Shown in pieces: positions 17,435 to 63,050 of a stretch of DNA of 64,000 nucleotides. The position numbers were made by a program, and so were the translations under genes. Source of the stretch: Guptibacillus hwajinpoensis (lineage in GTDB: Bacteria; Bacillota; Bacilli; Bacillales; Guptibacillaceae); contig NZ_LELK01000001.1 in assembly GCF_001039475.1 (NCBI RefSeq), positions 655,466 to 719,465 of the forward strand. Reading direction: 5' to 3'. The notes under the pieces are model-generated. The model had not been told where the DNA came from, did not search any database, and was given only the letters and a program-made list of their open reading frames with translations. Every line of letters starts with the position of its first letter. The stretch's first letter is position 1.

Positions 17435-17592
17435 AAAAGACTTTTCCGTAGATATTGGTCCTATTAGAATAGTGGTTAATTTCCGCTTCTGGATGCTCGC
17501 TTTCCGCGGGGCGGGCGGTGAGCATCCTTCCGCTCCAATTAGCGAAGTGTGGACAAAAATTGTAAAAAACAAAAAATCTTTTAGAAAAGAGC
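17435..17592 (+). repeat. GC-rich palindromic element R1, copy 1
   Basis: About 158 bp. The outer ends are GACTTTTCCGTAG and CTTTTAGAAAAGAGC. Inside, TTAATTTCCGCTTC is followed by hairpin arms GGATGCTC (17491-17498) and GAGCATCC (17520-17527), then TTCCGCTCCAATTAGCGAAG and TGTGG. GC content jumps well above the flanks. Two overlapping minus-strand reading frames here are artefacts of the repeat. It directly abuts R2 copy A. Confidence 0.75.
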
Positions 17593-17598
17593 AAAAAA

Positions 17599-17620
17599 AA
17601 ACAGCCATTAGGCTGTTTTT
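17599..17620 (-). terminator. Terminator of the DUF4395 gene
   Basis: AAACAGCC / GGCTGTTTTT with an ATTA loop, followed on the minus strand by a T run. It touches the stop of the DUF4395 gene. Confidence 0.85.
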
Positions 17621-18041
17621 AAGATGAATGCTGTGACCTTCTATATTGAAATTGTTTCCATTGATACCGAACAAAACAACCGACACAAAATCCAAGAATC
17701 GCGATTAAGGAAGCAAGAGCAACCATTATAGCCGCCGTATTGGCTAGCCATTGGATCGATGAAATGTGTGCAAGTAATGAGATAGTTAGAAGGGTCACCG
17801 CTATCTTTTGATTGAACTGTTGTTGCTCAGCATCTTCAGGAATATAGGTATTGAGAGGTTTCTTTAAAAATGGTTTACCTGCTTTAATAACTGGATTGAA
17901 TTTAAAAAGCAGCCCCATTAAACCTGCTGAAAGTGGTACTGCTAAAAAGAGCCAATTGGATGAAATGATAAACATCGTTGCGAATATAAAGATAAAGGAT
18001 TGATTTAGTCGTACAAGAGGTCTAGGAATGGATAAAGGCAT
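17619..18041 (-). CDS. DUF4395 membrane protein
   Basis: 140 aa with about four hydrophobic segments (FIFIFATMFIISSNWLF, an adjacent helix, then two in the C-terminal half). It ends with the GFCVGCFVRYQ motif typical of DUF4395 proteins, whose CxxC-like pair suggests a thiol or metal role. PIPRPLVRLNQ-type N-termini are usual for the family. AGGTAGGT precedes the ATG. No function is established; it sits alone between repeats and the NOS operon. Confidence 0.75.
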   Translation of the reverse strand: MPLSIPRPLVRLNQSFIFIFATMFIISSNWLFLAVPLSAGLMGLLFKFNPVIKAGKPFLKKPLNTYIPEDAEQQQFNQKIAVTLLTISLLAHISSIQWLANTAAIMVALASLIAILGFCVGCFVRYQWKQFQYRRSQHSS

Positions 18042-18126
18042 TAAAATACCTACCTTTCTTATAGGAATTTACTTATATAAAAGAATATACGCTTTGAAGT
18101 ATTTTGTACAGCTAAACGCTCAAAAA

Positions 18127-18148
18127 AAACCCACATTATTGTGGGTTT
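18127..18148 (-). terminator. Terminator of the nos operon
   Basis: AAACCCACA / TGTGGGTTT with a TTAT loop, followed by TTTTTTTG on the minus strand. It overlaps the stop of the ABM-domain gene. Confidence 0.88.
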
Positions 18149-18443
18149 ACTTGTCTGAATGTATTTGAACTAAGTGTTCCATTTCTACATGCTCCAAATA
18201 TGGATCCATCTTTTTTGTAAACTGTTCGAACCGTTGTGAATTCATGAATCCTTCGGTGTGAGCCGCAAGAGAATCCCACTCAATAAAAATCATATATTTA
18301 CGCTCAGCCTCAATTGATTTTGTTAGAGTATAATGCTGATATCCGTTTGTTGCAGCAATTAATTCAACAGCTTCTGAGAATGCTTTTTCGAATTCAGTTT
18401 CTAGTCCTTCATGGATTACAAAATAAGCCTTTTCGATAATCAT
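18147..18443 (-). CDS. Antibiotic biosynthesis monooxygenase (ABM) domain protein, HmoA/B-like
   Basis: 98 aa, one ferredoxin-like ABM domain. The central FIEWDSLAAHTEGFMNSQRF block is typical of the ABM/heme-degrading monooxygenase group. A heme-ligand histidine cannot be assigned confidently. It begins 19 bp after the NOS stop and ends in the operon terminator, so it is very likely co-transcribed with nos. A link to heme or oxidised-nitrogen chemistry is inference from context. It could equally be a quinol monooxygenase. Confidence 0.78.
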   Translation of the reverse strand: MIIEKAYFVIHEGLETEFEKAFSEAVELIAATNGYQHYTLTKSIEAERKYMIFIEWDSLAAHTEGFMNSQRFEQFTKKMDPYLEHVEMEHLVQIHSDK

Positions 18444-18462
18444 GCCAATCTCCTATTCTAAT

Positions 18463-19530
18463 CTAAAATGGTTTTTCCTGATAAAAGTAATTTGGTGATA
18501 AAATTTTATTCTTATATGGTTTATGGAAGATGTGCGTTGTTGCTGGAGAAACCGGAGGAATTAGCCAGGTCCAATTTCCCGTTACTTCCCGCTCTGCTTT
18601 CGCTTCATTTTGCTCGAATTTTTGAAATTGCTTCGCAGCTGTGTGATGATCTACAATACTTACTCCTGCCTTTTGATAGGAATATAAAACTGCTCGATTT
18701 AATTCAACAAGAGCACGATCTTTCCACAACGTCGCATTCGAACTCGTATCAATTTTCATTACACTTGCAACTTTCGGCAGTAAATCATAGCGATCAGTAT
18801 CAGCAAGGTTCCTTGCTCCTATCTCTGTTCCCATGTACCAGCCATTAAATGGAGCAGCACCGTAATCTATCCCTCCTATTTCTAATCGCATATCTGAAAT
18901 AATTGGAACAGCGTACCATTTAGCACCAAGAGAAGAGAAATCATATTCAGGGTGCTCTACTTCTACTTGAAGAACATGATCTTCAGGTAGATCAATAACG
19001 AGTGGCTTGTCATCATTCATTGTAAAAACGAGGGGTAACACGTCATGTGAGGTCCCTACTCCTCGCCAACCGAGTTTGATCACTTGATTCGTAAAGTCGA
19101 CAGAATCAGGATCACCTACAATGCCATCTTCAGTTTCATAACCTGCATAACGGACTAACTGATGATTCCAAATCCGTACTTTTCCTGGTTCAAAAATAGT
19201 AATCGTTGGACGAATTTTACCACCGTTTGTTGCTACCTTTAGGTGATGTAATAATGCATTTGTGACTTCTTCTACTGTTGAAGCACATCGTGCATCTATT
19301 ACTGTCATTGTGTTCCAAAAAAGTCTACCAATGCATTTGTTACTATTTCGCCACGCCATTTTCGCACCTTGTTCAAGTTCCTCGTATGTATGAGAGTAAG
19401 TTCCTTTAGCGTTAATTTCATCTCTAATTTCATTTTTTCGTAGCTGTAAAGCGGCTGGATCTTTTTCTAATTCATAATATGCCTGATCAAGAAAAGAAAA
19501 GGCTTCATCTATTAATTCGTTATGATTCAT
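18463..19530 (-). CDS. nos: Nitric oxide synthase oxygenase
   Basis: 355 aa, the oxygenase-only bacterial NOS that oxidises L-arginine via N-hydroxyarginine to citrulline and NO, using reductases encoded elsewhere. The heme thiolate is C66 in [11 protein letters not shown]. The substrate-binding glutamate is E236 in [28 protein letters not shown] and the C-terminal [16 protein letters not shown] are also family hallmarks. Length is normal. AGGAGGAAGAGCAT precedes the ATG. It forms an operon with a small ABM protein and is divergent from a thiosulfate transporter. Confidence 0.95.
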
Positions 19531-19615
19531 ATGCTCTTCCTCCTGTAGCCGGAGACGGTTCTAACACCTGATCTTAAGCTCATCATTGTAATAATCGGAA
19601 TACTAGTCCACGCGT

Positions 19616-19624
19616 ATTATATCA
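19616..19624 (-). promoter_or_regulatory. nos: Extended -10 promoter of nos
   Basis: On the minus strand TG-A-TATAAT is a perfect extended -10, about 86 bp upstream of the nos start. The -35 region (TAGTAC at 17 bp) is poor, as is usual with extended -10 elements. Confidence 0.55.
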
Positions 19625-19690
19625 CACGACCTTTTGCAGTACTAATGGACAACTCTAACCAGTGTGTTTTTATAAGCTTAGATTAAATTG

Positions 19691-19719
19691 TTTACACACC
19701 AACAAATCTATTGTAGGAT
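19691..19719 (+). promoter_or_regulatory. Sigma-A-type promoter of the thiosulfate transporter gene
   Basis: TTTACA and TAGGAT are separated by exactly 17 bp, about 48 bp upstream of the start codon and back to back with the nos promoter. Confidence 0.55.
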
Positions 19720-19766
19720 AAATTTGTTAATTCATATTAAAACTATCGGAATGAGGTGCATTAATC

Positions 19767-21011
19767 TTGGCAATGGAACAACCCGTTCATACAACAAGAA
19801 GTTCATTACAGCTTCCGTTCCTTAAAGCGCCACAAAAGCCTGTTCTTACAGCTGGCTTTTTATTTATTGCCTTACTCGGTTTGATCCTTTTTCTAAATCA
19901 AGGAGTTCAGCAAGTTGTTCTCTTTGCACTAGGACTATTACTTGGGTATTGCTTGCTTCATGCTAGATTTGGCTTTACATCGGCGTTCAGACAATTATTA
20001 AGCGTAGGAAATGGAACAGCCATTCAATCCCATATGCTGATGCTCGCTGTTGCTAGTACATTGTTCGCACCGATTCTATCAAATGGGTTCGGTTTGTTTG
20101 GGACAACACCTACTGGATATGTGTTCCCAGTCGGAACAAGCGTAGTTGTGGGATCATTCTTATTCGGGATTGGCATGCAACTCGGGGGTGGATGTGCTTC
20201 AGGAACACTCTATACTGTCGGTTGGGGGAAAACCGAAATGTTACTTACCCTATTCGGATTTATTGTTGGATCCGTTGTTGGTGCGTGGCATTTTGACTTC
20301 TGGGTAAATCAAATGCCTTCATTCCAAGCCATTTCTTTAGCCACAGATACAGGGCTAGGCTTTTTCGGAGCTTGGGTTCTTCAGCTTTCTTTGTTTGCAC
20401 TTATCTTCTTTCTAGTAAGATTCATAGCCAAAAAGCGTCAGCCTCCACAAATAAAGCCTTTACCAACAGCAAATGGTTGGAAGCGATTTTTCCGTGGCTC
20501 ATGGCCTATCTGGACTGCTGCAATTGCGCTAGGTGTACTAAATGCTTTAACGCTAGTATCCCGGGGAAACCCATGGGGCATTACATCAGCCTTTGCTCTT
20601 TGGGGTTCAAAAATAGCATTATTTCTAGGAATTGATGTTACACAGTGGGGATATTGGTCAGGTACCAAGTCTGCTGCACTTGAACAATCAATACTCACGG
20701 ATTCGACTAGCGTCATGAACTTCGGTGTTATTCTAGGAGCCTTTGTTGCTGCTGGCGCAGGCGGTGCATTTATTATGAGAAGAGTACCACTGAAGTTAGC
20801 CGCAGCCTCTATTATTGGTGGTTTACTAATGGGCTACGGTGCTCGGTTAGCATTTGGTTGTAACATTGGTGCTTATTTCGGAGGAATCGCATCATTCAGT
20901 CTTCATGGTTGGGTATGGATGATTGTTGCACTTGCAGGCTCATACTTAGCTCTCTACTTACGTCCTCTGTTTGGATTGAAAAATCCAAAGAAAGAAGATC
21001 AATTCTGTTAA
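19767..21011 (+). CDS. YeeE/YedE family thiosulfate transporter, TsuA-like
   Basis: 414 aa with many hydrophobic segments and the duplicated YeeE/YedE architecture. The two conserved cysteine motifs are GGGCASGTLYTVG (C143) and AFGCNIGAYFGG (C365), the residues through which TsuA is thought to relay thiosulfate. A further conserved-looking cysteine is at C62. The start is TTG 19767, 8 nt after GAGGTG; ATG 19773 is the alternative. A TusA-like sulfurtransferase often accompanies the family but is absent here. Regulation is likely from the promoter at 19691-19719. Confidence 0.85.
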   Translation: MAMEQPVHTTRSSLQLPFLKAPQKPVLTAGFLFIALLGLILFLNQGVQQVVLFALGLLLGYCLLHARFGFTSAFRQLLSVGNGTAIQSHMLMLAVASTLFAPILSNGFGLFGTTPTGYVFPVGTSVVVGSFLFGIGMQLGGGCASGTLYTVGWGKTEMLLTLFGFIVGSVVGAWHFDFWVNQMPSFQAISLATDTGLGFFGAWVLQLSLFALIFFLVRFIAKKRQPPQIKPLPTANGWKRFFRGSWPIWTAAIALGVLNALTLVSRGNPWGITSAFALWGSKIALFLGIDVTQWGYWSGTKSAALEQSILTDSTSVMNFGVILGAFVAAGAGGAFIMRRVPLKLAAASIIGGLLMGYGARLAFGCNIGAYFGGIASFSLHGWVWMIVALAGSYLALYLRPLFGLKNPKKEDQFC

Positions 21012-21015
21012 ACAT

Positions 21016-21048
21016 AAAAGGCCTGATCGATTATCGATCAGGCCTTTT
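21016..21048. terminator. Bidirectional terminator
   Basis: AAAAGGCCTGATCGAT and its complement form a 16-bp stem with one loop base, A-rich on one side and T-rich on the other. It separates the transporter gene from a convergent small gene. Confidence 0.88.
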
Positions 21049-21064
21049 CACTCTTAATCACTAA

Positions 21065-21268
21065 TTAAATTTCTTCAAAATATTCTTTATAAAATCCGCC
21101 GACTTTACCGCTATTATCAACGACAAACAAGAACTCTTCTGTTTCGTTCTTTACATCGTATGTCTTGCCTTCAGTTAATACTCGGTTCACCATATACTTC
21201 TTAGCGTTAGTATGTACACATTTAACTTTCTTGACTGTTGTTTGATCTTTCCATGAGTGATGAATCAT
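21065..21268 (-). CDS. DUF6501-like small protein, 67 aa
   Basis: 67 aa starting MIHHSWKDQ. The conserved-looking segment VKCVHTNAKKYMVN, then GKTYDVKNETEEFLFVVD and the GGFYKEYFEE tail, recall a small Bacillus protein family I know as DUF6501. The frame opens at an ATG at 21277, but AAAGGAG is better spaced from 21268. It has one cysteine, is basic and is probably cytosolic. Function unknown. Confidence 0.7.
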   Translation of the reverse strand: MIHHSWKDQTTVKKVKCVHTNAKKYMVNRVLTEGKTYDVKNETEEFLFVVDNSGKVGGFYKEYFEEI

Positions 21269-21335
21269 AACATCCACTCCTTTCTTCTTTTCTTCTATTC
21301 TACATGAGACCGCCTCTTAGATAAAGAATACGATA

Positions 21336-22193
21336 TTAAGATTCAAATAAATAGACGATGGAGTCTCCAACAGGTTTATAACCTATTCTCATATAGATCG
21401 AGTTGGATGTAGGATTTGATAAATCTGTATATAAGCTGCAAAACGAATAACCGCGATTTAGTATTGACTGACTTAGTTCTGCTACACACGCAGAGGCATA
21501 GCCATTTCTTTCAAACTCTGGTGGCGTATATACAAAGTTAATTGTCATTCCATTTGAAGTGGGTCTCGTCTGATTAGCCATAGAAACAATTTGATTCTCA
21601 ACTTGCCATAAGACAAGCGTTTGTTCTTCAATTAATTGTATAGCACGCTCACGACTTTCTTCGTATGGTATAGGCTGGCCAAGCGATTGAGTGAATCGTT
21701 GAATCCATTCAGTTATCATCTCACTATCCAATTCCTCTGCCATTCTCATAGATCCATCCACTTGCTTTGGCGGGTTCACCTGATCAAGTCGATAAATTCG
21801 TTGATTCATATGAAGGGTACGCTTCGCTTTTGTTAGACGAGAATATTCTTCCGAGAAAATTTCCACAAATCGATTTTCTCCAAGTATTCCTGGAACTTGT
21901 TTTTGCTTATGTAATTGATTCGCTCCATACAGAAGCGATTCCCTTGAAGTAGTAGCGCATCCAGCTATAGTGAGATTATGAGGTGGCGTCTGAATCATAC
22001 ATAGTTCTATTTTCCCGTCATCTGTTTCTATGGTTGCTAAATAAGGCTCATTATCAACATCTATTTTTCCATTCTGTATAACGTGACGATGTAAAATACC
22101 TAGCGATAAATTATTCACTGCTTCGTTTTTTTCTAGAAAGATTTGAACGTAATCTAAGTATGCAATCGGATCTTGAAAGTTTTTTATTCTCAT
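21336..22193 (-). CDS. GNAT family N-acetyltransferase
   Basis: About 285 aa. The C-terminal half is a GNAT fold: INFVYTPPEFERNGYASACVAEL is the acetyl-CoA pyrophosphate-binding motif A (the usual RxxGxG/A is here ERNGYA). SLYTDLSNPTSNSIYMRIGY is motif B. The N-terminal half, as in YobR/YkwB-like proteins, is a divergent second GNAT-like domain. GGGGAA precedes the ATG at 22193. The substrate is unknown. The gene is followed by a short gap and preceded by R1 copy 2. Confidence 0.8.
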   Translation of the reverse strand: MRIKNFQDPIAYLDYVQIFLEKNEAVNNLSLGILHRHVIQNGKIDVDNEPYLATIETDDGKIELCMIQTPPHNLTIAGCATTSRESLLYGANQLHKQKQVPGILGENRFVEIFSEEYSRLTKAKRTLHMNQRIYRLDQVNPPKQVDGSMRMAEELDSEMITEWIQRFTQSLGQPIPYEESRERAIQLIEEQTLVLWQVENQIVSMANQTRPTSNGMTINFVYTPPEFERNGYASACVAELSQSILNRGYSFCSLYTDLSNPTSNSIYMRIGYKPVGDSIVYLFES

Positions 22194-22221
22194 CACATTT
22201 CCCCACTTTTGTATTAGTTGA

Positions 22222-22402
22222 TAAAAAACTTGTTATGACATGGTTCCCCTTTAAGGGTAGTGATTGATTTGCGCTACAGGTGCTCGCTTTCCGTGGGACG
22301 GGACGCTTGAGCCGCAGGAGTCGAGCACCTTCCGCTCCAATCAACCTTGAATTATGGTTTTTTACATTACCATTCACAAAACAACATTTTTAGAAAACAG
22401 CC
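22222..22402 (+). repeat. GC-rich palindromic element R1, copy 2
   Basis: Approximate limits. The core has TTTGCGCTACAGGTGCTCGC, arms AGGTGCTCG (22279-22287) and CGAGCACCT (22322-22330), then TTCCGCTCCAATCAAC. The right end TTTTTAGAAAACAGCCT is a variant of the R1 end. The left end is poorly conserved. It lies between the acetyltransferase start and the odhB terminator. A minus-strand reading frame over it is spurious. Confidence 0.65.
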
Positions 22403-22411
22403 TAAGAAAAA

Positions 22412-22440
22412 AGAACCTGAATCTATTGGATTCAGGTTCT
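22412..22440 (-). terminator. Terminator of odhAB
   Basis: A 12-bp perfect stem, AGAACCTGAATC / GATTCAGGTTCT, with a TATTG loop and a TTTTTT run on the minus strand. It lies 10 bp after the odhB stop. Confidence 0.92.
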
Positions 22441-22449
22441 ATCTTTATC

Positions 22450-23745
22450 CTAACCTTCAAGAAGAAGTTGTTCTGGATCTTCGAGAAGCTCTTTGATTTT
22501 CGCGAGGAAGCTAACGGCTTCTCCACCATCTACGATGCGGTGATCGTATGAAAGAGCAATGTACATCATCGGGCGATTTTCCATTCGCTCCTGATCAATA
22601 GCCATTGGGCGCCATTGAATCTTGTGCATTCCAAGAATACCTACTTGAGGTGCATTTAGAATTGGAGTCGAAAGCATGGAACCGAAAATACCACCATTTG
22701 TAATTGTAAATGAACCACCTTGTAGCTCATCCAGTTTTAATTTGTTGTCACGAGCTTTCTTCGCAAGATTACCAATTTCCTGCTCAATTCCAGCGAATGA
22801 AAGTTTATCAGCGTCACGTACGACAGGAACCACAAGTCCTTCTTCTGCTCCAACTGCAATACCAATATCATAGAACTTCTTAAGAACGATATCCGTATCC
22901 TGAATCTCTGCATTTAGACGCGGGTACTTTTTAAGTGCTCCTACAACAGCTTTAGTGAAGAATGACATAAAACCAAGTTTTACATCGTTGTCTTCAAGAA
23001 ACTTGTCCTTACGACGTTTACGAAGCTCCATAATCGCTGTCATATCAACTTCGTTAAATGTTGTAAGCATTGCTGCAGTATGTTGAACTTCAACAAGACG
23101 CTTTGCAATCGTTTGACGACGACGAGACATTTTCACTCGTTCTACTGGCTTACCTTCATTAACTTGTGATTGTTTGTTTTCTTGTTTTTCTTGTTTCTTC
23201 TCTTGCTTTGGTGCTTCTTTTTGCCCTGATTGATCTGCATGGGCTTTCACATCGTCAGGACGCACTCGACCTAGAGGATCTTTCGTATTAACCTCATTCA
23301 AATCAACGCCAAGTTCACGAGCAAGTTTTCTAGCAGAAGGTGAAGCTACTGTTCGTCCATTCTCAGATTGTTGATTTGCTTCTGGTGCTGCATGAGCTTT
23401 TGATTCCTGATCTGATTTCGCTTCTTCAGGAGATTCCGTTTCTTCTTTTTTCGCTTCAGCTTGTTCGGTTTCATTAGCTTGTTGATCTTTAGATTGAGAA
23501 GAACTGCTTTCACCGCCACCTAGGTAAGCAATGATTTCGCCAACTTCTACATTATCACCAGGTTCTTTCAAAAGTTCTTTAATTACTCCATCGTTTTCAG
23601 CACTAACTTCGATGTTAACTTTGTCTGTTTCAAGCTCAACAAGGTTGTCACCTTTTTCTACTTTGTCGCCTACTTTGATTAACCATTGAGAAATGGTACC
23701 TTCTGTAATGGATTCTGCGAGTTCTGGTACTTTAACTTCAATCAC
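22450..23745 (-). CDS. odhB: 2-oxoglutarate dehydrogenase E2, dihydrolipoyl succinyltransferase
   Basis: 431 aa. The lipoyl domain (1-80) carries the lipoylated K42 in [11 protein letters not shown] long E/K/Q/A-rich linker (about 85-130) leads to the peripheral subunit-binding domain ([15 protein letters not shown] near 137), a second charged linker, and the catalytic domain ending in [13 protein letters not shown]. This is the TCA-cycle E2 core that passes succinyl to CoA. GTG start after AAGGAGG. It overlaps odhA by 8 nt, so the two are translationally coupled. Confidence 0.96.
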
Positions 23746-26596
23746 GACGATTACCTCCTTGATGGGAAACAGTTTTGGATGGCTCTAAGACTTCTTGTAT
23801 GATTCGTTCTTGATCCTTTTTATGCACGTTAGGCTCTCCGCCAGCTGGACTTGATCGATCTGGACGACCAACATAGCTCACAGCAACACCTTTTGGAGCT
23901 GACTCATGAATTCGAGGAGAAATGTAATTCCAAGAGCCCATATTCTTTGGTTCTTCCTGCAACCAAATAATTTCCTTCACATTAGAATACCGTTCAAAAA
24001 TCTTTTTAACTTCTTCATGAGGGAATGGATACAATTGCTCTACTCGAAGCACATGCAACCAATCAAAATTCTCTTCAGAAGATTCTATTTCAGCCGATAG
24101 ATCAACCGCTACCTTACCTGTACAAAGTACGATACGCTCTACCTTTTCTTTACTCTCGCCAAGACCTGCTTGTTCAACAACACTAAGGAATTGCCCCTGG
24201 CTGAATTCAAATCCAGGTGAAGACGTGCGCTGATTACGAAGGAGACTTTTTGGCGTCATAATGACAAGCGGTCGTACTTCTTTCTTCTCAAGAATAGCAG
24301 CCTGTCTACGTAAAATATGGAAGTATTGTGCTGCGCTCGTTAAATTCGCAACCGTCCAGTTGTTTTCAGCAGCAAGTGTAAGGAAACGTTCTACTCTTCC
24401 GCTAGAGTGTTCAGGTCCCTGACCTTCGTATCCATGTGGAAGTAACAAAACCATTCCTGACTTTTGTCCCCATTTTGCTCTACCTGCAGAAACAAATTGG
24501 TCAAAGATCACTTGTGCAGCATTAGCAAAGTCACCGTATTGTGCTTCCCAGATCACTAATGTTTCTGGAGCGAATACGTTATAACCATATTCGAAACCAA
24601 CAACAGAAGCTTCTGAAAGTGGGCTATTATGAATCGCAAATGACGATTCAGCTTGAGGTAGTTCATGAAGTGGGCAATACTTCTCACCCGTTTCTTTATC
24701 ATGAAGTACAAGGTGTCGCTGAGCGAATGTGCCTCTCTGGGAATCCTGTCCTGTTATACGTATTGGCGTTCCATCACCAAGAATAGATGCAAACGCAAGC
24801 GTTTCACCAAGTGCCCAATCGACTTTGCCACCTTCTTCAAGCATATCAAGTCTACGTTTCAAAATACGCTCAAGCTTTGGATAAACATTAAAGCCATCTG
24901 GGCGAATGAGTAACTTCTCATTGATGTCTTTTAGTGTCTCGAGAGGCACTGAAGTATCTATAGACGGAATTCCTTTAACAATCTCTTTAGGAGGCTGTAG
25001 CTCTTGCACATCTCCCTGATTGTCTCCGCCTTTTGCTATTTTATCGTACTCCGTTTGCAACTCTTGGAGTACTTCTTCATCTATCTTTTCGCCGTGACCA
25101 GATTCAATCACATTCTGATCAGTAAGGTATTTGGCATAACTTGCCCTTACTGTTGGATGGTTTTTAATTTTCTCATATAGATGTGGCTGTGTAACAGCTG
25201 GGTCGTCCATTTCGTTATGACCAAATCTTCTATATCCGATAAGATCAATTAGGAAATCTTTATTAAACTTCATTCTATACTCATATGCAAGGTGCATTGC
25301 AGCTAAACATGCTTCAGGGTCGTCAGCGTTCACATGCACAATTGGAATCTCATACCCTTTTGCAAGATCACTAGCATATTTAGTAGAACGAGAATCGGAA
25401 CTTTCGGTTGTAAATCCAAGCTGATTATTTGCGATAATATGAATGGTTCCGCCTGTATGATAGCCTTTAAGTTGGCTTAAGTTAAGCGTCTCAGCTACAA
25501 CGCCTTCACCAGGGAAAGCGGCGTCTCCATGAATTAGAATAGCAAATGATTTACGGAAATCTTGTTTTGGTTCACCCTTATTATCACGTGTTTCCTGTGC
25601 CGCTCTTGCATACCCTTCAACGACAGGATCAACAAATTCAAGGTGAGACGGATTGTTGGCAAGCGTAACGGTAGCTTCAGCCGTTTCAGACCCCTCAAAT
25701 TTACGATCTGCGCCCATGTGGTATTTCACATCACCAGTCCAACCATAGTTAATACCCGTTGAGCCTTCAGATGGCACAAGTTCTTTGTTTGGCGCATGAT
25801 GAAATTCAGCGAAAATCTTTTCATAAGGTTTGTTTAAAACGTGTGTAAGAACGTTTAAACGACCACGGTGAGCCATTCCTATCATTACATTCTTAGCACC
25901 GTCACTTGTACCACACTTAATAACGTCATCAAGCATTGGTACCATTGCGTCTACACCTTCAATGGAGAATCGTTTCTGTCCGACGAAGGTTTTATGAAGG
26001 AATTTCTCAAATCCTTCAACTTCTGTTAACCTTCGAAGAAGTTCTTTACGATCATCGTCTGTTAGCGTTCTGCTAACAGAATCGTTCTCCACCATTTCAT
26101 CAAGCCATTTACGTTCATCTTCAGCGTGTACGTGAGTGAATTCATATGATAAAGACTTTGTATATAGATCCTGCAATCGCTTAATAGCCTGCAAGCCGTT
26201 GTTAATATCTGCAGGCGCATTTTCCCAAACTACTTCAGCAGGAATCGCTTTCAAGTCTTCACTAGAAAGACCGTATTTCTCTGGATTCATAAATTTCTGA
26301 TCAGATTTCTCATTATTTAGTGGATTAATTGCTGCAGCTAAATGGCCATATGTACGAATATTATCAGCTAGTTTAACTGCTGATATGACCTTTTTAAGAT
26401 TACCTGGTTTAGCAGATGTTTCAATTTCATCTGTAGAAGATGGTGGTGGTCCCCACTGTTCAAACTTTTGGCGCATGTCGGGATCAACTGATTCCGGATC
26501 TTCTTGGTACATTTCATATAGTTCAATGGCATAGCCAAGGTTTGGTCCATAAAATTCTTGCCATGGATGTTCCACTCTGGACTGTTTGGTATTCAA
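23738..26596 (-). CDS. odhA: 2-oxoglutarate dehydrogenase E1 component
   Basis: 952 aa, the thiamine-diphosphate-dependent decarboxylase of the 2-oxoglutarate dehydrogenase complex. The N-terminal E2-binding segment [21 protein letters not shown] is at 10-30. [12 protein letters not shown] lies near 240, the ThDP/metal motif [18 protein letters not shown] near 365 and [13 protein letters not shown] near 620. [15 protein letters not shown] lies near 725. It starts with TTG after GGGAGGT; an out-of-frame ATG-CTT-TGA overlaps that TTG. Likely promoter and cre lie upstream. The E3 (dihydrolipoamide dehydrogenase) gene is not in the window. Confidence 0.96.
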
Positions 26597-42185: not shown

Positions 42186-42220
42186 ACTTTAAGCTCCTCT
42201 CACAATGTTTTAGTCTTACT

Positions 42221-42318
42221 AGGCTTTTTTTCGTATACGCTCTAGGTTGCTCCAGTCACCAAGTGTGGTTATTTTCTAATAGATAGTTTCAAAGCAACAA
42301 TCTATTAGAAAAGAGCCT
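42221..42318 (-). repeat. R1 element, copy 3 (internal deletion)
   Basis: 98 bp with R1 outer ends AGGCTTTTTTTCGTATACG and CTATTAGAAAAGAGCCT. It also has the conserved AAGTGTGG and TTTCAAAGCAACAAT blocks but lacks the GC-rich core hairpin of the other copies. A 3-bp direct repeat, ACT, borders it. It lies between the predicted rsbQ promoter and the rsbQ start, so it would be transcribed as part of the leader. Confidence 0.6.
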
Positions 42319-42590: not shown

Positions 42591-42754
42591 AGGCTCTTTT
42601 CTAAAAGATTGTTGCTTTGAAAGATTTTCGTATATAAAAAGCCACACTTCGCTAATTGGAGCGGAAGGATGCTCACCGCCCGACCCGCGGAAAGCGAGCA
42701 TCCTGAAGCGGAAATTAACCCACGCTTATAGCAACAATGTATTCGAAAAGAGCT
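42591..42754 (-). repeat. R1 element, copy 4 (best preserved)
   Basis: 164 bp. The ends AGGCTCTTTTC..AAAGATTGTTGC and GCAACAATG..GAAAAGAGCT form imperfect terminal inverted repeats of about 24 bp. Inside, AATTGGAGCGGA and GAAGCGGAAATT flank hairpin arms AGGATGCTC / GAGCATCCT. It begins 3 bp after the DCC stop codon, separating the gene from its weak terminator. The reading frame covering it is spurious. Confidence 0.78.
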
Positions 42755-50409: not shown

Positions 50410-50600
50410 GGCTATGTTTGCTCATATTGTTGATTTCTCGATTTTTGGCTCATTCGAGTGAAACCTCAGTTTCACTCGCCTTTCAGCTCTGCTGAAAGCC
50501 TGTGGTGCCCATTCGCCTGAGCAAATGAATTTGCTCCAAGCGAATGGGCACAACAGGGCGTAAATGAGCCAAAAATCAACATTGTTCATTAACATAGCCT
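50410..50600. repeat. Palindromic element R2, copy B (long form with nested insert)
   Basis: 191 bp. The ends GGCTATG and CATAGCC match R2 copy A, as do the TTGTTGATT..TCGA..TTTGGCTCATTCGAGTGAAAC arm and the AATGAGCCAAAAATCAAC arm. An 84-bp stretch (50479-50562) splits the inner CACTCG|AATGAGCC site. It holds two perfect hairpins, CTTTCAGC/GCTGAAAG and GTGCCCATTCGC/GCGAATGGGCAC. A third, GAGCAAAT/ATTTGCTC, is nested in the second. The element ends exactly at the mug stop codon. Confidence 0.75.
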
Positions 50601-53532: not shown

Positions 53533-53555
53533 AAAGTAGTATAAGGTACTACTTT
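53533..53555. promoter_or_regulatory. Inverted repeat upstream of the subtilase gene
   Basis: AAAGTAGTA / TACTACTTT with a 5-bp spacer, about 121 bp upstream of the start. It has the form of a repressor operator, but no T run marks it as a terminator. The regulator is unknown. Confidence 0.4.
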
Positions 53556-53574
53556 CGTTTGTTGGTATTTAAGA

Positions 53575-53713
53575 ATTTTTATATAAAATACCTACCTTCG
53601 CTAATTGAAGCGGAAGGAGGCTCAAGCGTCCCGCCCCGCGGAAAGCAAGCATCCTGGAGCTGAAATTCACCCACTTTCTAAAAAAAATTTCTTTATCCTC
53701 TTAAAAAGAGCCT
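53575..53713 (-). repeat. R1 element, copy 5
   Basis: Approximate left limit. Contains CTTCGCTAATTGAAGCGGAAGG, a GC-rich centre with CCGCGGAAAGC, then AGCATCCTGGAGCTGAAATT, and the right end TTAAAAAGAGCCT. The left terminal repeat is degraded. It lies between the subtilase upstream region and the mhqD terminator. The remaining 343-bp gap also holds the hairpin at 53533-53555 and an AT-rich promoter region. Confidence 0.65.
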
Positions 53714-53747: not shown

Positions 53748-53754
53748 CTAAACA

Positions 53755-55405: not shown

Positions 55406-55414
55406 TTTGATTTA

Positions 55415-55443
55415 AGTGTATTAAGTTCTACTCTTTCTGTCAA
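55415..55443 (-). promoter_or_regulatory. Promoter of the mhqE-mhqD-like operon
   Basis: A perfect TTGACA, 17 bp, TACACT on the minus strand, directly upstream of the MhqR box. Confidence 0.75.
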
Positions 55444-55509
55444 CTATTTTCATTTCCGCGTATAGGACAACCTCTAAATGAGACATTCTATATGTAAAGG
55501 AGTGATGAG

Positions 55510-55599: not shown

Positions 55600-55604
55600 C
55601 ATGA

Positions 55605-55631
55605 AAAGCACTCCTCAGTGAGGAGTGCTTT
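55605..55631. terminator. Bidirectional terminator between the small toxin gene and gltB
   Basis: AAAGCACTCCTCA / TGAGGAGTGCTTT, nearly perfect palindrome shared by convergent genes. Confidence 0.88.
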
Positions 55632-55637
55632 CTCTGT

Positions 55638-57122
55638 TTATGGCATAACTGTTTTATTCATTAGATATCGATCAGTCTCTCGAGCTACGCCACGACCTTC
55701 GTTGATTGCCCAAACGATAAGACTTTGCCCTCTTCGAACATCCCCCGCGGCAAAGACGCCATCAACATTTGTTTTGTAATCTTCGAATTCTGCTTTTGCA
55801 CGTTTGCGATTATCTTGCTCTACTTCAAAGTGCTCTAAGACACCTTCTTCTGGACCAGTAAAACCGATCGCAATTAGAACAAGCTCAACCGGCCAAACTT
55901 GCTCTGTACCCGGTAATTCTTTCATAAAGACGTTACCTTTTTTGTCAATATGCTTCTCAATGGTAACGGTATGAAGCTCTTTTACATGACCATTCTCATC
56001 CCCGACGAACTTCTTCGTCATAATGGAATATTGACGCGGATCTTCTCCGTGCTCTGCTTGAGCTTCTTCATAAGCATAATCAAGAGTAAACACTTTCGGA
56101 AACTCCGGCCATGGATTATCAATCATACGATCTGCTGTTAGCTGTGGATGTTTACCGAACTGATGAACACTTTTGCATCCATGTCTAAGCGCGGTTGCGA
56201 CACAGTCTGCCCCTGTATCTCCACCCCCAATAACAATAACATTTTTTCCTTCTGCGGAAACGTATTGCTTATCTTCTAGTTGTGAATCCAATAAGCTTTT
56301 CGTGTTTTTTCTTAAATAGTCCATTGCATAGTGAATTCCACCAAGTTTACGTCCCTCGATTGGAAGATCTCTGTGCTTTTGAGCCCCAGTACAAAGGATA
56401 ACAGCATCATGTTCTTCACGAAGCTCTTCACGTGTCACATCTTTACCAATTTCAGTATTTGTAACAAATACTACACCTTCATCTTCAAGCAACTTCACTC
56501 GACGCTCAACAAGATCTTTATCTAGCTTCATGTTTGGTATACCATACATCAACAATCCACCAATACGATCATCACGCTCAAATACTGTAACAGAGTGTCC
56601 TGCCTTATTTAACTGGTCAGCTGCTGCAAGACCAGCTGGACCTGAACCAACGATAGCAATTTTCTTTCCAGTGCGATTCATTGGTGGCTTAGGCGTCATC
56701 CAACCTTCTGCAAAACCTCGATCAATGATTTCCTTCTCAATGCTCTTTATCGCAACCGCATCATCTGGAATAGCTGCTACACACGCACCTTCGCATGGTG
56801 CAGGGCACACTCTACCAGTGAATTCAGGGAAGTTATTCGTTTTCAATAAACGGTCTAAAGCATCTTTCCATTTGCCCTGGTAAACAAGATGATTCCATTC
56901 TGGAATAAGATTGTAAAGTGGACATCCTGATGCGTTACCATTAAGTTCAATCCCTGAGTGACAGAAGGGGGTGCCGCAATCCATACAGCGAGCCCCTTGC
57001 GTCTTCAATTTGTCTTCAGATTGAGGAAGCTGATACTCTCCCCAATCTTTTAGTCGTGTTGTTAAATCTCTTTCACGTGCTTTTTCTCTAGGATAGTCTA
57101 TAAAACCTGTCGGCTTACCCAA
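55638..57122 (-). CDS. gltB: Glutamate synthase small (beta) subunit
   Basis: 494 aa. N-terminal Fe-S region ([23 protein letters not shown] and [13 protein letters not shown]) is followed by FAD ([19 protein letters not shown] near 155) and NADPH ([13 protein letters not shown] near 295) Rossmann motifs. It passes NADPH electrons to GltA. TTG start after AAGGGAGGTAATCGA. It lies 14 bp downstream of gltA in the same operon and ends in the terminator at 55605-55631. Confidence 0.96.
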
Positions 57123-57136
57123 TCGATTACCTCCCT

Positions 57137-60100
57137 TTATACCGGTTCCAAATCGCTTTGTCGTGATTTAACTTCCCCGTTCTTAGCCTGCTGGAACACT
57201 TCATATGCTGCTTCATTATCTTCATATCCTTTTTCTTTCAATTCGGCTAATGAATTAGTAATTCGCTTAAATTCCTTTGGAATAACTTTCACGATTTTAC
57301 TTACATATTCATTCCAATTTTGAATGTAACGAATCGCTTTAGGGCTATCTGTAAAGTAAGCATGCTGCTGAATCAGGTGCTTTACTTCAAGAATTTCTTC
57401 ATAATTTGTTAAAGATTCAATATGAACCATTTCAGTATTTACATTATTCATAAATGTGTCACGATCTTCAGAAAGTACATAAGCGATTCCGCCTGACATA
57501 CCCGCTGCAAAGTTTTTCCCAGTATTTCCAAGAACAACTACTCGACCGCCAGTCATATATTCACACCCATTGTCGCCGATACCTTCTACTACTGCTTTAA
57601 CGCCACTATTTCTTACACAGAAGCGCTCACCGGCAAGTCCACTAATATACGCTTCACCAGATGTCGCACCGTAGAAAGCGACGTTCCCGATAATCGTATT
57701 CTCATCACGCGTAAATAACGATTTGGATGACGGATGGATAATTAACTTGCCGCCTGACAATCCTTTTCCAACATAGTCGTTAGCATCACCTTCAAGATGC
57801 ATTGTGACACCATTCGGTACAAACGCTCCAAAACTTTGTCCTGCTGATCCTTTGAAGTGCAAGCGAATTAGATCGTTAGGCAGTCCTTCTGCACCATAAC
57901 GTTTCGTAATCTCATGCCCTAACAATGCTCCAGCTACTCGATTTGTGTTTCGAATAACATATGAACCTTCGAAAGCCTTGCCTTCTTCGAGTGCTCCAAG
58001 GCATGCAGGAATAATTGACGTATTATCAAGTGCCGCTTCAAGATTATGGTCTTGTTGACGTTGATTAAAACGCCCAACTTCTTCCGATACATGTGGTTGA
58101 TATAGGAGCGGTTTTAAGTCAAGATATCTTGCTTTCCAGTGGTCTTTCGTGCGACGGCTAACTTTCAGCACATCTGTCCGACCAATCATTTCTTCTATCG
58201 TTCTGAAACCAAGCTGTGCCATGATTTCACGAACTTCTTCAGCAATAAACTTCATATAATTAACTACGTGATCAGGATTCCCCATAAACTTTTTACGAAG
58301 TTCAGGGTTCTGTGTTGCTACACCTACTGGGCATGTATCTAGGTGACATGCTCTCATTAGAATGCAACCTAATACTACAAGTGGCGCCGTTGAGAAACCA
58401 AACTCTTCAGCCCCTAGGATGGCTGCCATAACAACGTCACGACCGGTCATCATTTTGCCATCTGCCTCAAGAACAACACGGTCACGTAAATCATTTAGGA
58501 CTAATGTTTGGTGGGTCTCAGCAAGACCTAACTCCCATGGTAGCCCTGCATGTTTAATACTTGTTCGAGGGGAAGCTCCTGTACCACCTTCATATCCACT
58601 AATAAGAATAACATCCGCAAGTCCTTTCGCTACACCAGCAGCGATTGTACCTACACCCGCTTTAGATACGAGTTTAACATTGATTCGAGCGGTTGGATTG
58701 GCATTCTTTAAGTCATGAATAAGCTGAGCAAGATCCTCAATTGAATAAATATCATGGTGTGGCGGTGGTGAGATTAAGCCTACACCAGGTGTTGAACCTC
58801 GAACTTCTGCAATCCATGGATAAACCTTTTTACCTGGAAGTTGACCACCTTCACCTGGCTTAGCTCCTTGAGCCATTTTGATTTGAATTTCATCTGCATT
58901 ACTCAAGTAATAACTTGAAACACCAAATCGGCCAGATGCAACTTGTTTGATCGAGCTTCGACGCAAGTCACCGTTCTCATCAGGTGTAAATCTAGAAGGA
59001 TCTTCTCCTCCTTCACCACTATTGCTTCGTCCACCAATTCGGTTCATCGCTATCGCTAACGCTTCATGGGCTTCTCCACTAAGAGCACCGTAACTCATTG
59101 CTCCTGTTTTGAATCGGCGTGTGATCGATTCAACACTTTCTACTTCATCGATTGGAATTGGTTCATTCGATCCAAAGTCAATCGCCTGTCTCAAATACGT
59201 TAAGTTCTCTTCAAAGGCCATGCCTGAGAACTTCTTATATAACTCGTAGTTATTGCTTCGTGCAGCATGTTGGAGCGTATGAATTGTTTTTGGATTAAAC
59301 GAATGATGCTCTCCACCATTTCTCCACTGCAATTCGCTACCTGTTTCTAGAGTAAGGTCACTGTATTCAGAATCATGATAAGCAAAATGATGTCTCATCA
59401 ACGTTTCAGTTGCAATAATATCGATCGGAATGCCATCAATTTGTGATGCAGTTCCAGCAAAATAGCGATCAATTACTTCATTACTAACGCCAATGGCTTC
59501 AAAGATTTGAGCGCCACGATAACTTTGGATTGTAGAGATCCCCATTTTGGACATTACTTTTACAATCCCGGTTGTTGCAGCTTCAACATAATTGTTAATA
59601 GCATCTTCAAAAGAGAATCCTTCAATTGTTCCATCCTGAATCATATGGGCAATCGAATCATAAGCAGCATACGGATAAATTGCATCTGTTCCGTAACCAA
59701 TCAGCATTGCAAATTGATGAACGTCTCTCGCTTCACCCGTTTCCACAATAAGACTAACTTTCGTACGCGTTTCACGCTTAATTAAATGGTGATGTAATCC
59801 ACTAATAGCAAGAAGCGATGGGATCGCTGCTTTCTCACTATTAACACCTAAATCAGAAAGTACAAGAATACTCTTTCCATTCTTAATGGCACGATCTGCT
59901 TTACGGAATAAAGCAAGTAACGCGTGCTCCATTTCGGTTTCACCACGTCCCGCATTAAACAGCAAACTTAGCTTTTCCGTTTGGAAATCCTCTTCATCTA
60001 ATGCCTTGATTGCATCAAATCTACCTTCAGTTAGAATAGGTGTTTCAAGACGAATTCTTTTTGCGCTACCAGAATCTGTACTTAATAAATTTCCTTCTGG

Positions 60101-61726
60101 TCCAAGTAACGTCATTGTAGATGTAACAGATTCCTCTCGAATTGAATCAATTGGAGGGTTTGTTACTTGAGCAAATAGCTGTTTAAAGTAATTGAATAGA
60201 AGCTGTGGACGTTCAGATAGAACCGCCAGCGGCACATCATTACCCATTGAACCAATTGGATCTTTCATTTCTGTAACCATTGGTGCAATATTCTTCGTTA
60301 ATTCTTCATATGTGTATCCAAAAGCACGCTGTGTTTTAACGAGTTCCTTCTCATCAATCTGACGTTCAGCTGCCGGTACTGATGTTAGACTCATTAAATT
60401 ATCATCTAGCCATTTTCGGTACGGAACCTCAGTAGCAATTTGTTCTTTGATCTCTTCATCATAAATAAGTCGCTTTTCTTCTAGATCGAGAAGTAGCATT
60501 TTACCAGGACTTAAACGACCTTTCTCAATAATCTTTTCTTCTTCAACTTCGATAACTCCAACTTCTGAAGAAAGGATGAACGTGTCATCATCTGTAATGA
60601 TATATCGAGCTGGACGTAAGCCATTACGATCAAGCATCGCCCCAATTTGACGACCATTAGTAAAAGCGATGGCTGTAGGCCCATCCCACGGTTCCATTAA
60701 ACAACTATGATACTCGTAGAACGCTTTCTTTGGATCTTGCATCGTTGCGTCACGATCCCACGGTTCTGGAATCATCATCATTGCTGCATGTGGCAATGAA
60801 CGACCTGAAAGGTTCAAGAATTCCAGGCAATTGTCCAATGAAGAAGAATCGCTTCCGTTTGGACGAACGATTGGAGCGATATCTTGCATATCGTCACCAA
60901 AAATGTCTGATTTAAGCGCTCCTTCACGAGCTCTCATCCAGTTTACATTTCCACGGAGCGTATTGATTTCGCCATTATGAATGAGATAACGGTTCGGGTG
61001 TGCTCGGTCCCAGCTAGGGAATGTATTTGTACTAAAACGTGAGTGAACCATTGAAAAGGCGGATTTAAAACTAGGATTTTTTAAATCCAAATAGAATTGA
61101 TCAAGTTGTTCAGGTGTAAGCATTCCTTTATAAACAATCGTATCTTTTGAAAAGCTCGCAGCATAATATTTGGTTTTGGAAAGTTGTGAATCAAGAGCAA
61201 CTTGCTTTTCTGCTTTCTTACGAATGACATAAAGTTTACGCTCGAATTCTTCTGCAGAAATATCGCTTTTCTTAATAAAAACCTGTCTAATGACAGGCTG
61301 AGCAATGCATGCAGCTTCTCCAATTGTCGTCTCATCAACAGGAACTGTTCTCCAGCCAATAAATTCTTGACCTGCTTCCTTAATTGCTTTCTCAACAATT
61401 TGCTTTGCGCGCTGTCTCAGCTGATTATCTACCGGTAGGAACATCATCCCTACGCCGTATTCACCTTTATTCGGAAGGTTAAAACCCGAGTTTTCTATAA
61501 AGAATTCATGAGGAATCTGAAGCATAATACCTGCACCGTCACCAGTATCAGGGTCACTCCCCTGTCCACCTCGGTGATCCAGTTGACGAAGCATATAGAC
61601 TCCTTTTTCGATAATATGATGTGCTGGTTCATTATTCATATTGGCGATCAGCCCGATTCCACAAGCGTCATGCTCATGAATTGGATCATATAATCCCTGT
61701 TTCTCTGGAAAATTGCTTCTATCCAT
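57137..61726 (-). CDS. gltA: Glutamate synthase large (alpha) subunit
   Basis: About 1529 aa. An N-terminal propeptide ends before the nucleophile cysteine in HEHDACGIGL (C22 from this start), which begins the class II glutaminase domain. A central domain and the FMN/3Fe-4S synthase domain (GGRSNSGEGGEDPSRF, KPGEGGQLPGKKV; cysteines in CILMRACHLDTCPVG) follow. The C-terminal GXGXG beta-helix domain includes GGRVVVLGNTGKNFAAGMSGG. It makes two glutamates from glutamine and 2-oxoglutarate. GAGGAG fits ATG 61726; the upstream GTG at 61741 is less likely. Divergent from gltC. Confidence 0.96.
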   Translation of the reverse strand: MDRSNFPEKQGLYDPIHEHDACGIGLIANMNNEPAHHIIEKGVYMLRQLDHRGGQGSDPDTGDGAGIMLQIPHEFFIENSGFNLPNKGEYGVGMMFLPVDNQLRQRAKQIVEKAIKEAGQEFIGWRTVPVDETTIGEAACIAQPVIRQVFIKKSDISAEEFERKLYVIRKKAEKQVALDSQLSKTKYYAASFSKDTIVYKGMLTPEQLDQFYLDLKNPSFKSAFSMVHSRFSTNTFPSWDRAHPNRYLIHNGEINTLRGNVNWMRAREGALKSDIFGDDMQDIAPIVRPNGSDSSSLDNCLEFLNLSGRSLPHAAMMMIPEPWDRDATMQDPKKAFYEYHSCLMEPWDGPTAIAFTNGRQIGAMLDRNGLRPARYIITDDDTFILSSEVGVIEVEEEKIIEKGRLSPGKMLLLDLEEKRLIYDEEIKEQIATEVPYRKWLDDNLMSLTSVPAAERQIDEKELVKTQRAFGYTYEELTKNIAPMVTEMKDPIGSMGNDVPLAVLSERPQLLFNYFKQLFAQVTNPPIDSIREESVTSTMTLLGPEGNLLSTDSGSAKRIRLETPILTEGRFDAIKALDEEDFQTEKLSLLFNAGRGETEMEHALLALFRKADRAIKNGKSILVLSDLGVNSEKAAIPSLLAISGLHHHLIKRETRTKVSLIVETGEARDVHQFAMLIGYGTDAIYPYAAYDSIAHMIQDGTIEGFSFEDAINNYVEAATTGIVKVMSKMGISTIQSYRGAQIFEAIGVSNEVIDRYFAGTASQIDGIPIDIIATETLMRHHFAYHDSEYSDLTLETGSELQWRNGGEHHSFNPKTIHTLQHAARSNNYELYKKFSGMAFEENLTYLRQAIDFGSNEPIPIDEVESVESITRRFKTGAMSYGALSGEAHEALAIAMNRIGGRSNSGEGGEDPSRFTPDENGDLRRSSIKQVASGRFGVSSYYLSNADEIQIKMAQGAKPGEGGQLPGKKVYPWIAEVRGSTPGVGLISPPPHHDIYSIEDLAQLIHDLKNANPTARINVKLVSKAGVGTIAAGVAKGLADVILISGYEGGTGASPRTSIKHAGLPWELGLAETHQTLVLNDLRDRVVLEADGKMMTGRDVVMAAILGAEEFGFSTAPLVVLGCILMRACHLDTCPVGVATQNPELRKKFMGNPDHVVNYMKFIAEEVREIMAQLGFRTIEEMIGRTDVLKVSRRTKDHWKARYLDLKPLLYQPHVSEEVGRFNQRQQDHNLEAALDNTSIIPACLGALEEGKAFEGSYVIRNTNRVAGALLGHEITKRYGAEGLPNDLIRLHFKGSAGQSFGAFVPNGVTMHLEGDANDYVGKGLSGGKLIIHPSSKSLFTRDENTIIGNVAFYGATSGEAYISGLAGERFCVRNSGVKAVVEGIGDNGCEYMTGGRVVVLGNTGKNFAAGMSGGIAYVLSEDRDTFMNNVNTEMVHIESLTNYEEILEVKHLIQQHAYFTDSPKAIRYIQNWNEYVSKIVKVIPKEFKRITNSLAELKEKGYEDNEAAYEVFQQAKNGEVKSRQSDLEPV

Positions 61727-61812
61727 TATCCCACTCCTCACTCTTATCCCAATTCATTATGGTTTCTCGCTTTAACGCCATAACGTCTAAATTGTTTAAA
61801 TATTCTACACTC

Positions 61813-61842
61813 ATTGTACATTGCTTTAACCAATGCTTTCAA
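61813..61842 (-). promoter_or_regulatory. gltAB promoter
   Basis: TTGAAA, 18 bp, TACAAT on the minus strand, about 90 bp upstream of gltA. Expected to be activated by GltC. Confidence 0.55.
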
Positions 61843-61852
61843 TATATAATTA

Positions 61853-61867
61853 AGATATAATTAATCT
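61853..61867. promoter_or_regulatory. Candidate GltC box
   Basis: AGAT-ATAATTA-ATCT is a short dyad in the gltA-gltC intergenic region, just upstream of the gltA -35, where GltC box I is expected. LysR-like geometry; similarity to the B. subtilis box is not proved here. Confidence 0.4.
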
Positions 61868-61902
61868 ATTATTGATATGAATCGAAGAAAGGGTCGTTTT
61901 TT

Positions 61903-62808
61903 GTGGAACTCAGACAACTCTATTATTTTATGGAAGTAGCTAAAAGAGAGCATGTAACAGCTGCCGCAACCTCCTTACACGTTGCTCAGTCAGCAGTTAG
62001 TCGACAAATTGCCAATCTAGAGTCTGAGCTTGGTGTGCAATTATTTATTCGTGAGGGTCGCAACGTCAAACTAACACAAGTTGGACATATCTTTATGGAC
62101 CATGCAGAAACAGCTATTTCAGAAATTGAACGTGCTAGACAAGCAGTTTATGAGTTTCTTAATCCTGATACTGGTACAATTCGCATTGGTTTTCCTAACA
62201 GTCTGGCTGCCAAAACGTTACCTACTGTTATTTCTGCCTTTCGAAAAGAACATCCTAGTGTTGGGTTTCAGCTGAGACAAGGCTCTGTTCAGGACTTAAC
62301 AGATGCAGTTAGTAAAGGAGAAATCGATATTGCTTTTGTATCACCTGTCCCGAAGGATCGTACTGATGTTGATGGACATATTTTCTTTACTGAGAAGCTC
62401 CTAGCTCTTCTCCCTATTTCGCATCCGCTTGCGGACTACCCCATGCTTAGGCTTGGACAATTAAAGAATGAACCATTTGTTTTGTTTCGATCAGGCTATG
62501 CTCTGCATCAGCTTGTTACTTCAGCATGTCAGCAGGTTGGCTTTAAACCTCGGATCGCCTTTGAAGGTGAAGATATCGATACGATTAAAGGACTTGTAGC
62601 CGCCGGACTCGGTGTAAGCCTCCTTCCTGAAATTACACTTTCAGAACAGTTGCCAGGTGAGACAGTGAAAATTGAACTATCAGAACCTAACGTAACTCGC
62701 ACTGTTGGCGTGATTATCCCTAAAGGGAGGGAGCTCGCCCCATCTGAAAGGAAGTTTTTTGAATTCCTTACCCATTTTTATGAAGTTCTTAACCGATTTG
62801 GGCAATAA
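61903..62808 (+). CDS. gltC: LysR-family regulator GltC
   Basis: 301 aa, GTG start. The HTH (AATSLHVAQSAVSRQIANLE near 21-40) and the following LFIREGRNVKLT agree closely with B. subtilis GltC, as do GFPNSLAAKTLPTVISAF and the closing TVGVIIPKGRELAPSERKF. GltC activates gltAB in response to 2-oxoglutarate and represses itself. The divergent arrangement with gltA is conserved. A long terminator follows. Confidence 0.95.
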   Translation: MELRQLYYFMEVAKREHVTAAATSLHVAQSAVSRQIANLESELGVQLFIREGRNVKLTQVGHIFMDHAETAISEIERARQAVYEFLNPDTGTIRIGFPNSLAAKTLPTVISAFRKEHPSVGFQLRQGSVQDLTDAVSKGEIDIAFVSPVPKDRTDVDGHIFFTEKLLALLPISHPLADYPMLRLGQLKNEPFVLFRSGYALHQLVTSACQQVGFKPRIAFEGEDIDTIKGLVAAGLGVSLLPEITLSEQLPGETVKIELSEPNVTRTVGVIIPKGRELAPSERKFFEFLTHFYEVLNRFGQ

Positions 62809-62833
62809 TCATTTTAGATTGGCTTATATACAT

Positions 62834-62880
62834 AAAAGCGAGGAGAGAGCTTGATTGATCAAACTCTCTCCTCGCTTTTT
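62834..62880 (+). terminator. gltC: Terminator of gltC
   Basis: AAAAGCGAGGAGAGAG / CTCTCTCCTCGCTTTT, a 16-bp perfect stem with a 14-nt loop and T tail. Confidence 0.92.
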
Positions 62881-62885
62881 TATCT

Positions 62886-63050
62886 GGCTGTTTTCGTAGA
62901 GATTAGTGCAATGAGAGTGGATAATTTCCGCTCCAGTGGGGTCTCACCTGTCCCGCTAGTCCCGCAGGAGTCGAGCATCCTTCCGCTCCAATTAGCGAAG
63001 TGTGGTTTTTATTCAATAATTGTTTCAAACATTCTTCTAGAAAAGAGCCT
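62886..63050 (+). repeat. R1 element, copy 6
   Basis: 165 bp. The ends are GGCTGTTTTCGTAG and TTCTAGAAAAGAGCCT. It has ATAATTTCCGCTCC, a variant GC-rich core (GGGGTCTCACCTGTCCCGC, then CGAGCATCC) and TTCCGCTCCAATTAGCGAAG, TGTGG. A second core type differs from copies 1 and 4, as if the central segment had been exchanged. It sits between gltC and the convergent MFS gene. Confidence 0.72.

Follow-up and report, generated by a model that had tools for sequence, protein, structure and literature searches.

GC-rich repeats of Guptibacillus hwajinpoensis as putative IS1595-family miniature transposable elements with a hairpin core found in other mobile elements

The R1 repeats of Guptibacillus hwajinpoensis were analysed starting from a 64,000-nucleotide stretch of contig NZ_LELK01000001.1 (hereafter the window; G000:C14:655466-719465), which belongs to a genome of 4.26 Mb in 14 contigs. 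R1 is very probably a miniature inverted-repeat transposable element (MITE) of the insertion sequence (IS) family IS1595 that carries a hairpin core shared with unrelated elements. An earlier note, made from the letters of the window, had described six copies of a dispersed GC-rich palindromic family with defined ends. This description was right, but it missed that R1 is two things, namely IS1595-type ends and a hairpin core common to other elements.

The R1 element proper extends from GGCTC to GAGCC, and the 8 bases beyond are duplicated target, which corrects the boundaries given earlier. The terminal inverted repeats are about 27 bp long (GGCTSTTTTCGYA..ATTGTTGCTAT). A plasmid search with an R1 end pointed to Niallia sp. 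Man26, where an IS1595-family transposase is encoded by an element (L384) bounded by R1-type ends and an exact 8-bp duplication. The protein reached 206.6 bits with the NCBIfam hidden Markov model (HMM) for IS1595 (cut-off 75) and has relatives in 70 of 199 genomes. A total of 32 IS1595 loci were examined for ends, duplications and core. R1-type ends, here called A-type, were found with exact 8-bp duplications in the IS1595 elements L384, L393, L395, L397 and L418, and with duplications of 7/8 in L394, L421 and L389. B-type ends (GGCTCTGTTAAA..TGTTGAT) with exact 8-bp duplications were found in L405, L411, L413, L415, L416 and L422. Because full-size IS1595 elements have R1-type ends and exact 8-bp duplications, R1 is assigned, by sequence comparison, to the non-autonomous IS1595-family MITEs.

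The plasmid searches with two R1 ends returned 8 and 12 records. Nine plasmid regions were inspected (H18, H19, H20, H22, H23, H46, H47, H48 and H53), of which H18 and H48 led to IS1595 elements; an IS1595 gene is located about 600 bp away from region H50. No informative transposase came from searching plasmids with C- and D-type ends. Several full-size IS1595 elements hold a second, unrelated open frame (L384:2501-4265, L393:667-2586 and L395:1422-3430), which in L384 is annotated as a DinB family protein.

An ISL3-type MITE, first proposed from the ends and duplication of that family, was rejected as hardly credible, as it is outweighed by the IS1595 ends. ISL3 elements in the examined loci also have GGCTCT.. 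ends and 8-bp duplications. However, these ends have only the short pattern GGCTCT..TGTTG in common with R1, whereas IS1595 elements match the R1 ends over at least 20 bases, and an ISL3 transposase is present neither in this genome nor in 18 of 20 core-bearing genomes. Assignment of R1 to the IS1182 family was also rejected, the ends being IS1595-type and a match to PF13751 being absent from the source genome.

Copies were searched for with a covariance model of 162 positions, trained on 23 R1 copies of this genome including copy 4 of the window. The genome contains at least 150 scored model matches, the weakest of these with E 5.1e-8. With at most 3 mismatches allowed, the 25-base core motif was counted 168 times, 85 on one strand and 83 on the other, and a reversed-pattern control gave 0 occurrences; the extrapolation of the earlier note to many hundreds of copies per genome is not established by these counts. 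Copies exist outside the window, their boundaries are conserved and the similarity extends beyond a short core. Own-genome copies with both ends measure about 150-240 bp and fall into length classes of about 160 and 220 bp with identical end type, the fuller form being the one of about 220 bp (L086 and L088-L090). At G000:C7:695342-695721, C9:177141-177510 and C14:1976791-1977079, two or more matches lie next to each other or nested in one another.

Target duplications and empty sites in relatives, both suggested earlier as checks, were looked for and found. For R1 copies of this genome in which both ends could be identified, 42 readings were made (two loci read twice); the 8-bp flanks are identical in 14 and agree at 7/8 or better in 25, compared with 4.9% for randomly paired flanks; without the two loci read twice the numbers are 14/38 and 24/38. 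No exact duplications of 4-7, 9 or 10 bp were found among the 42 readings. The duplicated targets are 88% A+T. At the site of copy 6 the R1 motif is present in 0 of 13 congeners, 11 of which have just 42-97 bp between both genes. The sites of copies 3/4 and 5 could be compared in the two of 13 congeners where both neighbour genes were found (G002 and G013); the former is empty in both, and the latter has R1 motifs between the same genes in both. From these empty and shared sites it follows that R1 has moved since the species split and that some insertions are older, a reconstruction of past movement from genome comparison.

For 15 of the 42 readings, the distance between R1 and the end of a terminator-like hairpin plus T-tract is at most 16 nt; of 3000 control positions in AT-rich intergenic DNA, 97 have such a hairpin this close. 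In the window, copy 6 lies directly after a terminator hairpin and copy 1 adjoins a terminator-like hairpin. These counts indicate an insertion bias of R1 towards predicted intrinsic terminators.

The core is a hairpin of about 126 bp inside R1, from GTTGATTTCC to CCAATCAAC. A 219-bp R1 copy compared with 61 genomes gave matches in 41, from 30 of 48 genera. Outside the genus, many among the matches listed cover just positions 36-157, approximately, of this copy; longer matches including the R1 ends were also obtained in G059, G033 and G017. The top identity among the matches listed was that of a core in the congener G003, 98% over 118 bases with different flanks. A pattern scan of named species genomes, whose genera are not a census, gave at least 117 stretches with the core. 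The 80 of these that were listed belong by title to Bacillaceae and neighbouring families, except for three records of Pseudomonas sp. ISL-84 (L193, L217 and L221), probably a mislabelled Bacillaceae genome. The core is also present in 16 plasmid records, and a search of phage records with the core gave no match. Rfam gave 0 matches in the window, and the full R1 gave chance-level matches only; a known Rfam RNA was therefore ruled out for R1 and for the core, with no match at or above the gathering score. In the cores at L283:277-545 and L304:989-1176, AGGAGTC is preceded by an extra stretch that ends in ...ATCGCACGAAGAAAATG..CATTTTCG and has the same location in the two genomes.

The vehicles of the core were surveyed in 176 core hits of the examined loci, a number that includes duplicates (e.g. 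L098/L154, L104/L150 and L106/L158). A ends on both sides are present at 41 hits, with exact 8-bp duplications flanking 23; when two noticed duplicate pairs are reduced, 39 A-type hits remain, with 22 exact duplications and 30 of at least 7/8. B ends are present at 11 hits (exact 8-bp duplications flanking 6); another 5 hits are flanked on either side by C, D, E or F ends, and 19 have one recognisable end. Several IS1182-family elements also have the core, placed after their left end and ahead of the transposase: L308, with an open frame of 485 amino acids (aa), and L237, with remnants in L284, L307 and L304, and, judged by eye, L207 and L160. Family assignment was by HMM for L308, L237, L284 and L307, by PF13751 for L304, and by eye for L207 and L160. 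Judged from sequence, the same core sits in a second IS1595-type MITE and beside IS1182-family transposases. The usual view of a MITE is that of a reduced copy of a single parent element. In the present case elements with unrelated ends have a conserved interior, and the interior module therefore appears historically separate from its vehicles; it behaves as a portable hairpin module common to unrelated transposable elements. Loci L120-L137 (G003 and G011) are core-bearing elements with another end type, CAGATTGTCGAGAAAGT. In several of them the element starts directly after a terminator-like hairpin, and in L134 the hairpin appears again on the far side.

The core is structurally conserved, as far as comparative sequence data can indicate. 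In 75 diverse cores, many of them from pattern-scan loci where the pattern fixes part of the core and inflates conservation, a structure of 35 pairs is paired in 94.9% of cells, compared with 87.4% in shuffles and 38-47% in slid structures. Double-change cells number 157, against 27.6 in shuffles, and 0 of 500 shuffles reached any of five observed measures; kinship alone can raise covariation above shuffles, but not so far above the slid controls. Folding, another check proposed earlier, gave z -7.05 for the full R1 as RNA and z -5.83 for the core as DNA.

In the proposed mechanism, an IS1595 transposase acting in trans would have recognised the R1 ends of about 27 bp, and R1 would have inserted at 8-bp targets rich in A+T, many of them next to an intrinsic terminator. 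The hairpin module of about 126 bp is the sole cargo of R1 and is not specific to it. At the DNA level the module may make insertions tolerable by insulating the element from its neighbours, and it may offer a landing site to hairpin-seeking IS1182 elements; this assignment of function to the core is tentative. Equally tentative is a wider proposal, that the core forms an independent genetic unit: selection would act on the hairpin as DNA, and the core would ride on and swap between IS1595-type MITEs and IS1182 elements across Bacillaceae and their neighbours and serve as an insertion buffer and as a landing site for hairpin-seeking, core-carrying elements. If the interior module does have a history apart from its vehicles, it would provide a testable case of a selected hairpin inside mobile DNA and would account for GC-rich intergenic repeats of a class that is met throughout Bacillaceae genomes and has no Rfam entry.

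Several results stand against these proposals. No transposition was observed. No partner transposase was detected in this genome, where a search for an IS1595-type transposase gave no match at E<=1e-10; the congeners G001 and G008 contain fragments of such a transposase. A convincing core was found in 0 of the 32 IS1595 loci, with one weak 40-base match in L403. None of the six tested end types was found at 100 of the 176 core hits. The leader arrangement, with the core before the transposase, is present in only 4 of 30 IS1182 loci, five of which are short contig ends where a leader core could be missed. For the functional part, three core columns are nearly constant U.G, and the core lies upstream of the transposase and in the same orientation in 7 of 7 IS1182-linked cases, both of which suit RNA over DNA.

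The U.G columns, the codirectional position and the very stable fold of the full R1 favour an alternative in which the core acts as an RNA leader hairpin, blocking or processing read-through from outside and keeping transposase expression low, while the MITEs are deletion derivatives that retained the core. This is conceivable but doubtful. One selected RNA strand would be expected to tolerate G.U above A.C, whereas outside the three U.G columns the two are equally common (35 and 40 cells, respectively), and the balance therefore leans to DNA pairing or use of both strands. The gene context leans the same way: of the codirectional contexts, 23 of 34 here and 32 of 52 elsewhere have neighbouring genes that run antisense to the core (crude gene calls). 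The coreless state of the examined IS1595 elements also speaks against an RNA leader. A different alternative, which we regard as rather unlikely, is that the core is itself mobile and was inserted independently into several transposons, as opposed to exchange by recombination or descent from ancestral leaders. It would account for the boundaries GTTGATT/AATCAAC, which recur in different chassis, and for a tree of 64 cores on which the chassis labels change 15 times where the minimum is 4. However, inspection by eye showed no duplication immediately next to the core, and the tree is based on 130 columns, has few supported branches and includes at least one doubtful label (L221).

As for the landing site in the DNA-level proposal, two insertions into apical loops were found, from which no rate can be given. 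The IS1182 element of L308 occupies the apical loop of a second core and is bordered on either side by GGCTACGCC. In L259 the loop of a core is occupied by an element that is core-bearing itself. Both inserted elements are C-type. IS1272, of the IS1182 family, is described as inserting into hairpins or terminators, with no target duplication reported (PMC4923244); the repeated GGCTACGCC of L308 differs in this respect. These two cases are suggestive of the core as a landing site for hairpin-seeking elements. At L166:1563 foreign sequence (tgaccccaaaaagttggaca..) begins after the left half of a core, which may represent a further insertion into a core loop.

Of the element types involved, MITEs, IS1595 elements and hairpin-targeting IS1182 elements have all been described before. 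R1 agrees with the IS1595 insertion sequences and MITEs of Bacillales in its ends (A- and B-type) and in exact 8-bp duplications, and differs from the insertion sequences in having no transposase and in having the core. Some IS1182-family elements (IS1272 type) have the same core between end and transposase, but the ends and the 8-bp duplication of R1 are of another type. We know of no report of an interior hairpin common to elements with unrelated ends. Literature searches, some made with sequence fragments, found neither such a hairpin nor a description of the core, with most subscription papers and all supplements outside their reach. The bcr1-bcr18 repeats of the Bacillus cereus group resemble R1 as dispersed repeats of 100-400 bp, with mobile features in bcr1, and are associated with a TTTAT motif instead of 8-bp duplications (PMC6542083); R1 was compared with them by description. 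The same applies to Bhal-1 and Bhal-2 of Bacillus halodurans, which are likewise intergenic stem-loop families of a bacillus and are 74-76 bp long (PMC2267715). BOX, RUP, NEMIS and similar MITEs are, like R1, small, mobile, foldable intergenic repeats (PMC3733652 and PMC10969869). Repetitive extragenic palindromic (REP) elements moved by RAYT transposases are GTAG-tagged short palindromes linked to a RAYT gene (PMC3733652); the ends and duplication of R1 point elsewhere.

All six repeats of the window are real, being found by the covariance model with E values from 6.9e-32 to 6.8e-7 (copy 4 belongs to the training set), four in the plus and two in the minus orientation, and both orientations had indeed been reported. 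The places given for them earlier were right, and the exact boundaries required small corrections (Table 1). The AGGCTCTTTTC-like ends, the TCCGCTCCAATTAGCGAAG block and the variant arms of copy 2 are present in the sequence. That all six copies share both ends and the internal block holds generally; the exceptions are copies 2 and 5, each with one unrecognisable end, and copy 3, in which the TCCGCTCC block has diverged and the GC-rich core is absent. The window copies are partial forms of the fuller R1. About 60 bp of the core middle are missing from copies 1, 4 and 5, and the apical part of the core is missing from copy 2. A good target duplication (7/8) is present in copy 4 only, which shares its intergenic region with copy 3.

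The absence of coding capacity noted earlier was confirmed. The three mechanical open reading frames (ORFs) that overlap an R1 copy, at copies 1, 2 and 6, measure 84-88 aa and extend beyond the elements, core lengths differ by non-multiples of three, and no transposase lies inside R1, given its size and overlapping mechanical ORFs of less than 90 aa. An intergenic location applies to most copies; crude gene calls put a core inside an open frame in 1 of 60 cases in this genome and in 8 of 96 elsewhere.

Table 1. R1 copies and coreless B-type elements in the window
Feature	Positions	Strand	Remarks
R1 copy 1, IS1595-type MITE, shortened core	17439-17593	+	model E 1.2e-20; flanks agree 6/8
R1 copy 2, variant core GGTGCTCG/CGAGCACC, degenerate left end	22227-22402	+	model E 6.8e-7
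R1 copy 3, ends and right arm, core lost	42222-42317	+	model 42192-42317, E 1.2e-7
R1 copy 4, best-preserved, both ends, shortened core	42592-42754	-	model E 6.9e-32 (training sequence)
R1 copy 5, decayed, one end lost	53571-53713	-	model 53545-53697, E 2.9e-12
R1 copy 6, most of core left half lost	62886-63049	+	model E 1.6e-14
B-type IS1595-type MITE without core, other inner hairpin, adjoins copy 1	17322-17427	.	ends GGCTATGTAATAGAACAGTGTTGAT.., exact 8-bp duplication TTTATATA
Second copy of the B-type coreless MITE	50410-50599	.	exact 8-bp duplication TTTACTTT; repeat pair with 17322-17427

The inner hairpin of the coreless B-type MITE has GGCTCATTCGAGTGAAAC arms and is different from the R1 hairpin.

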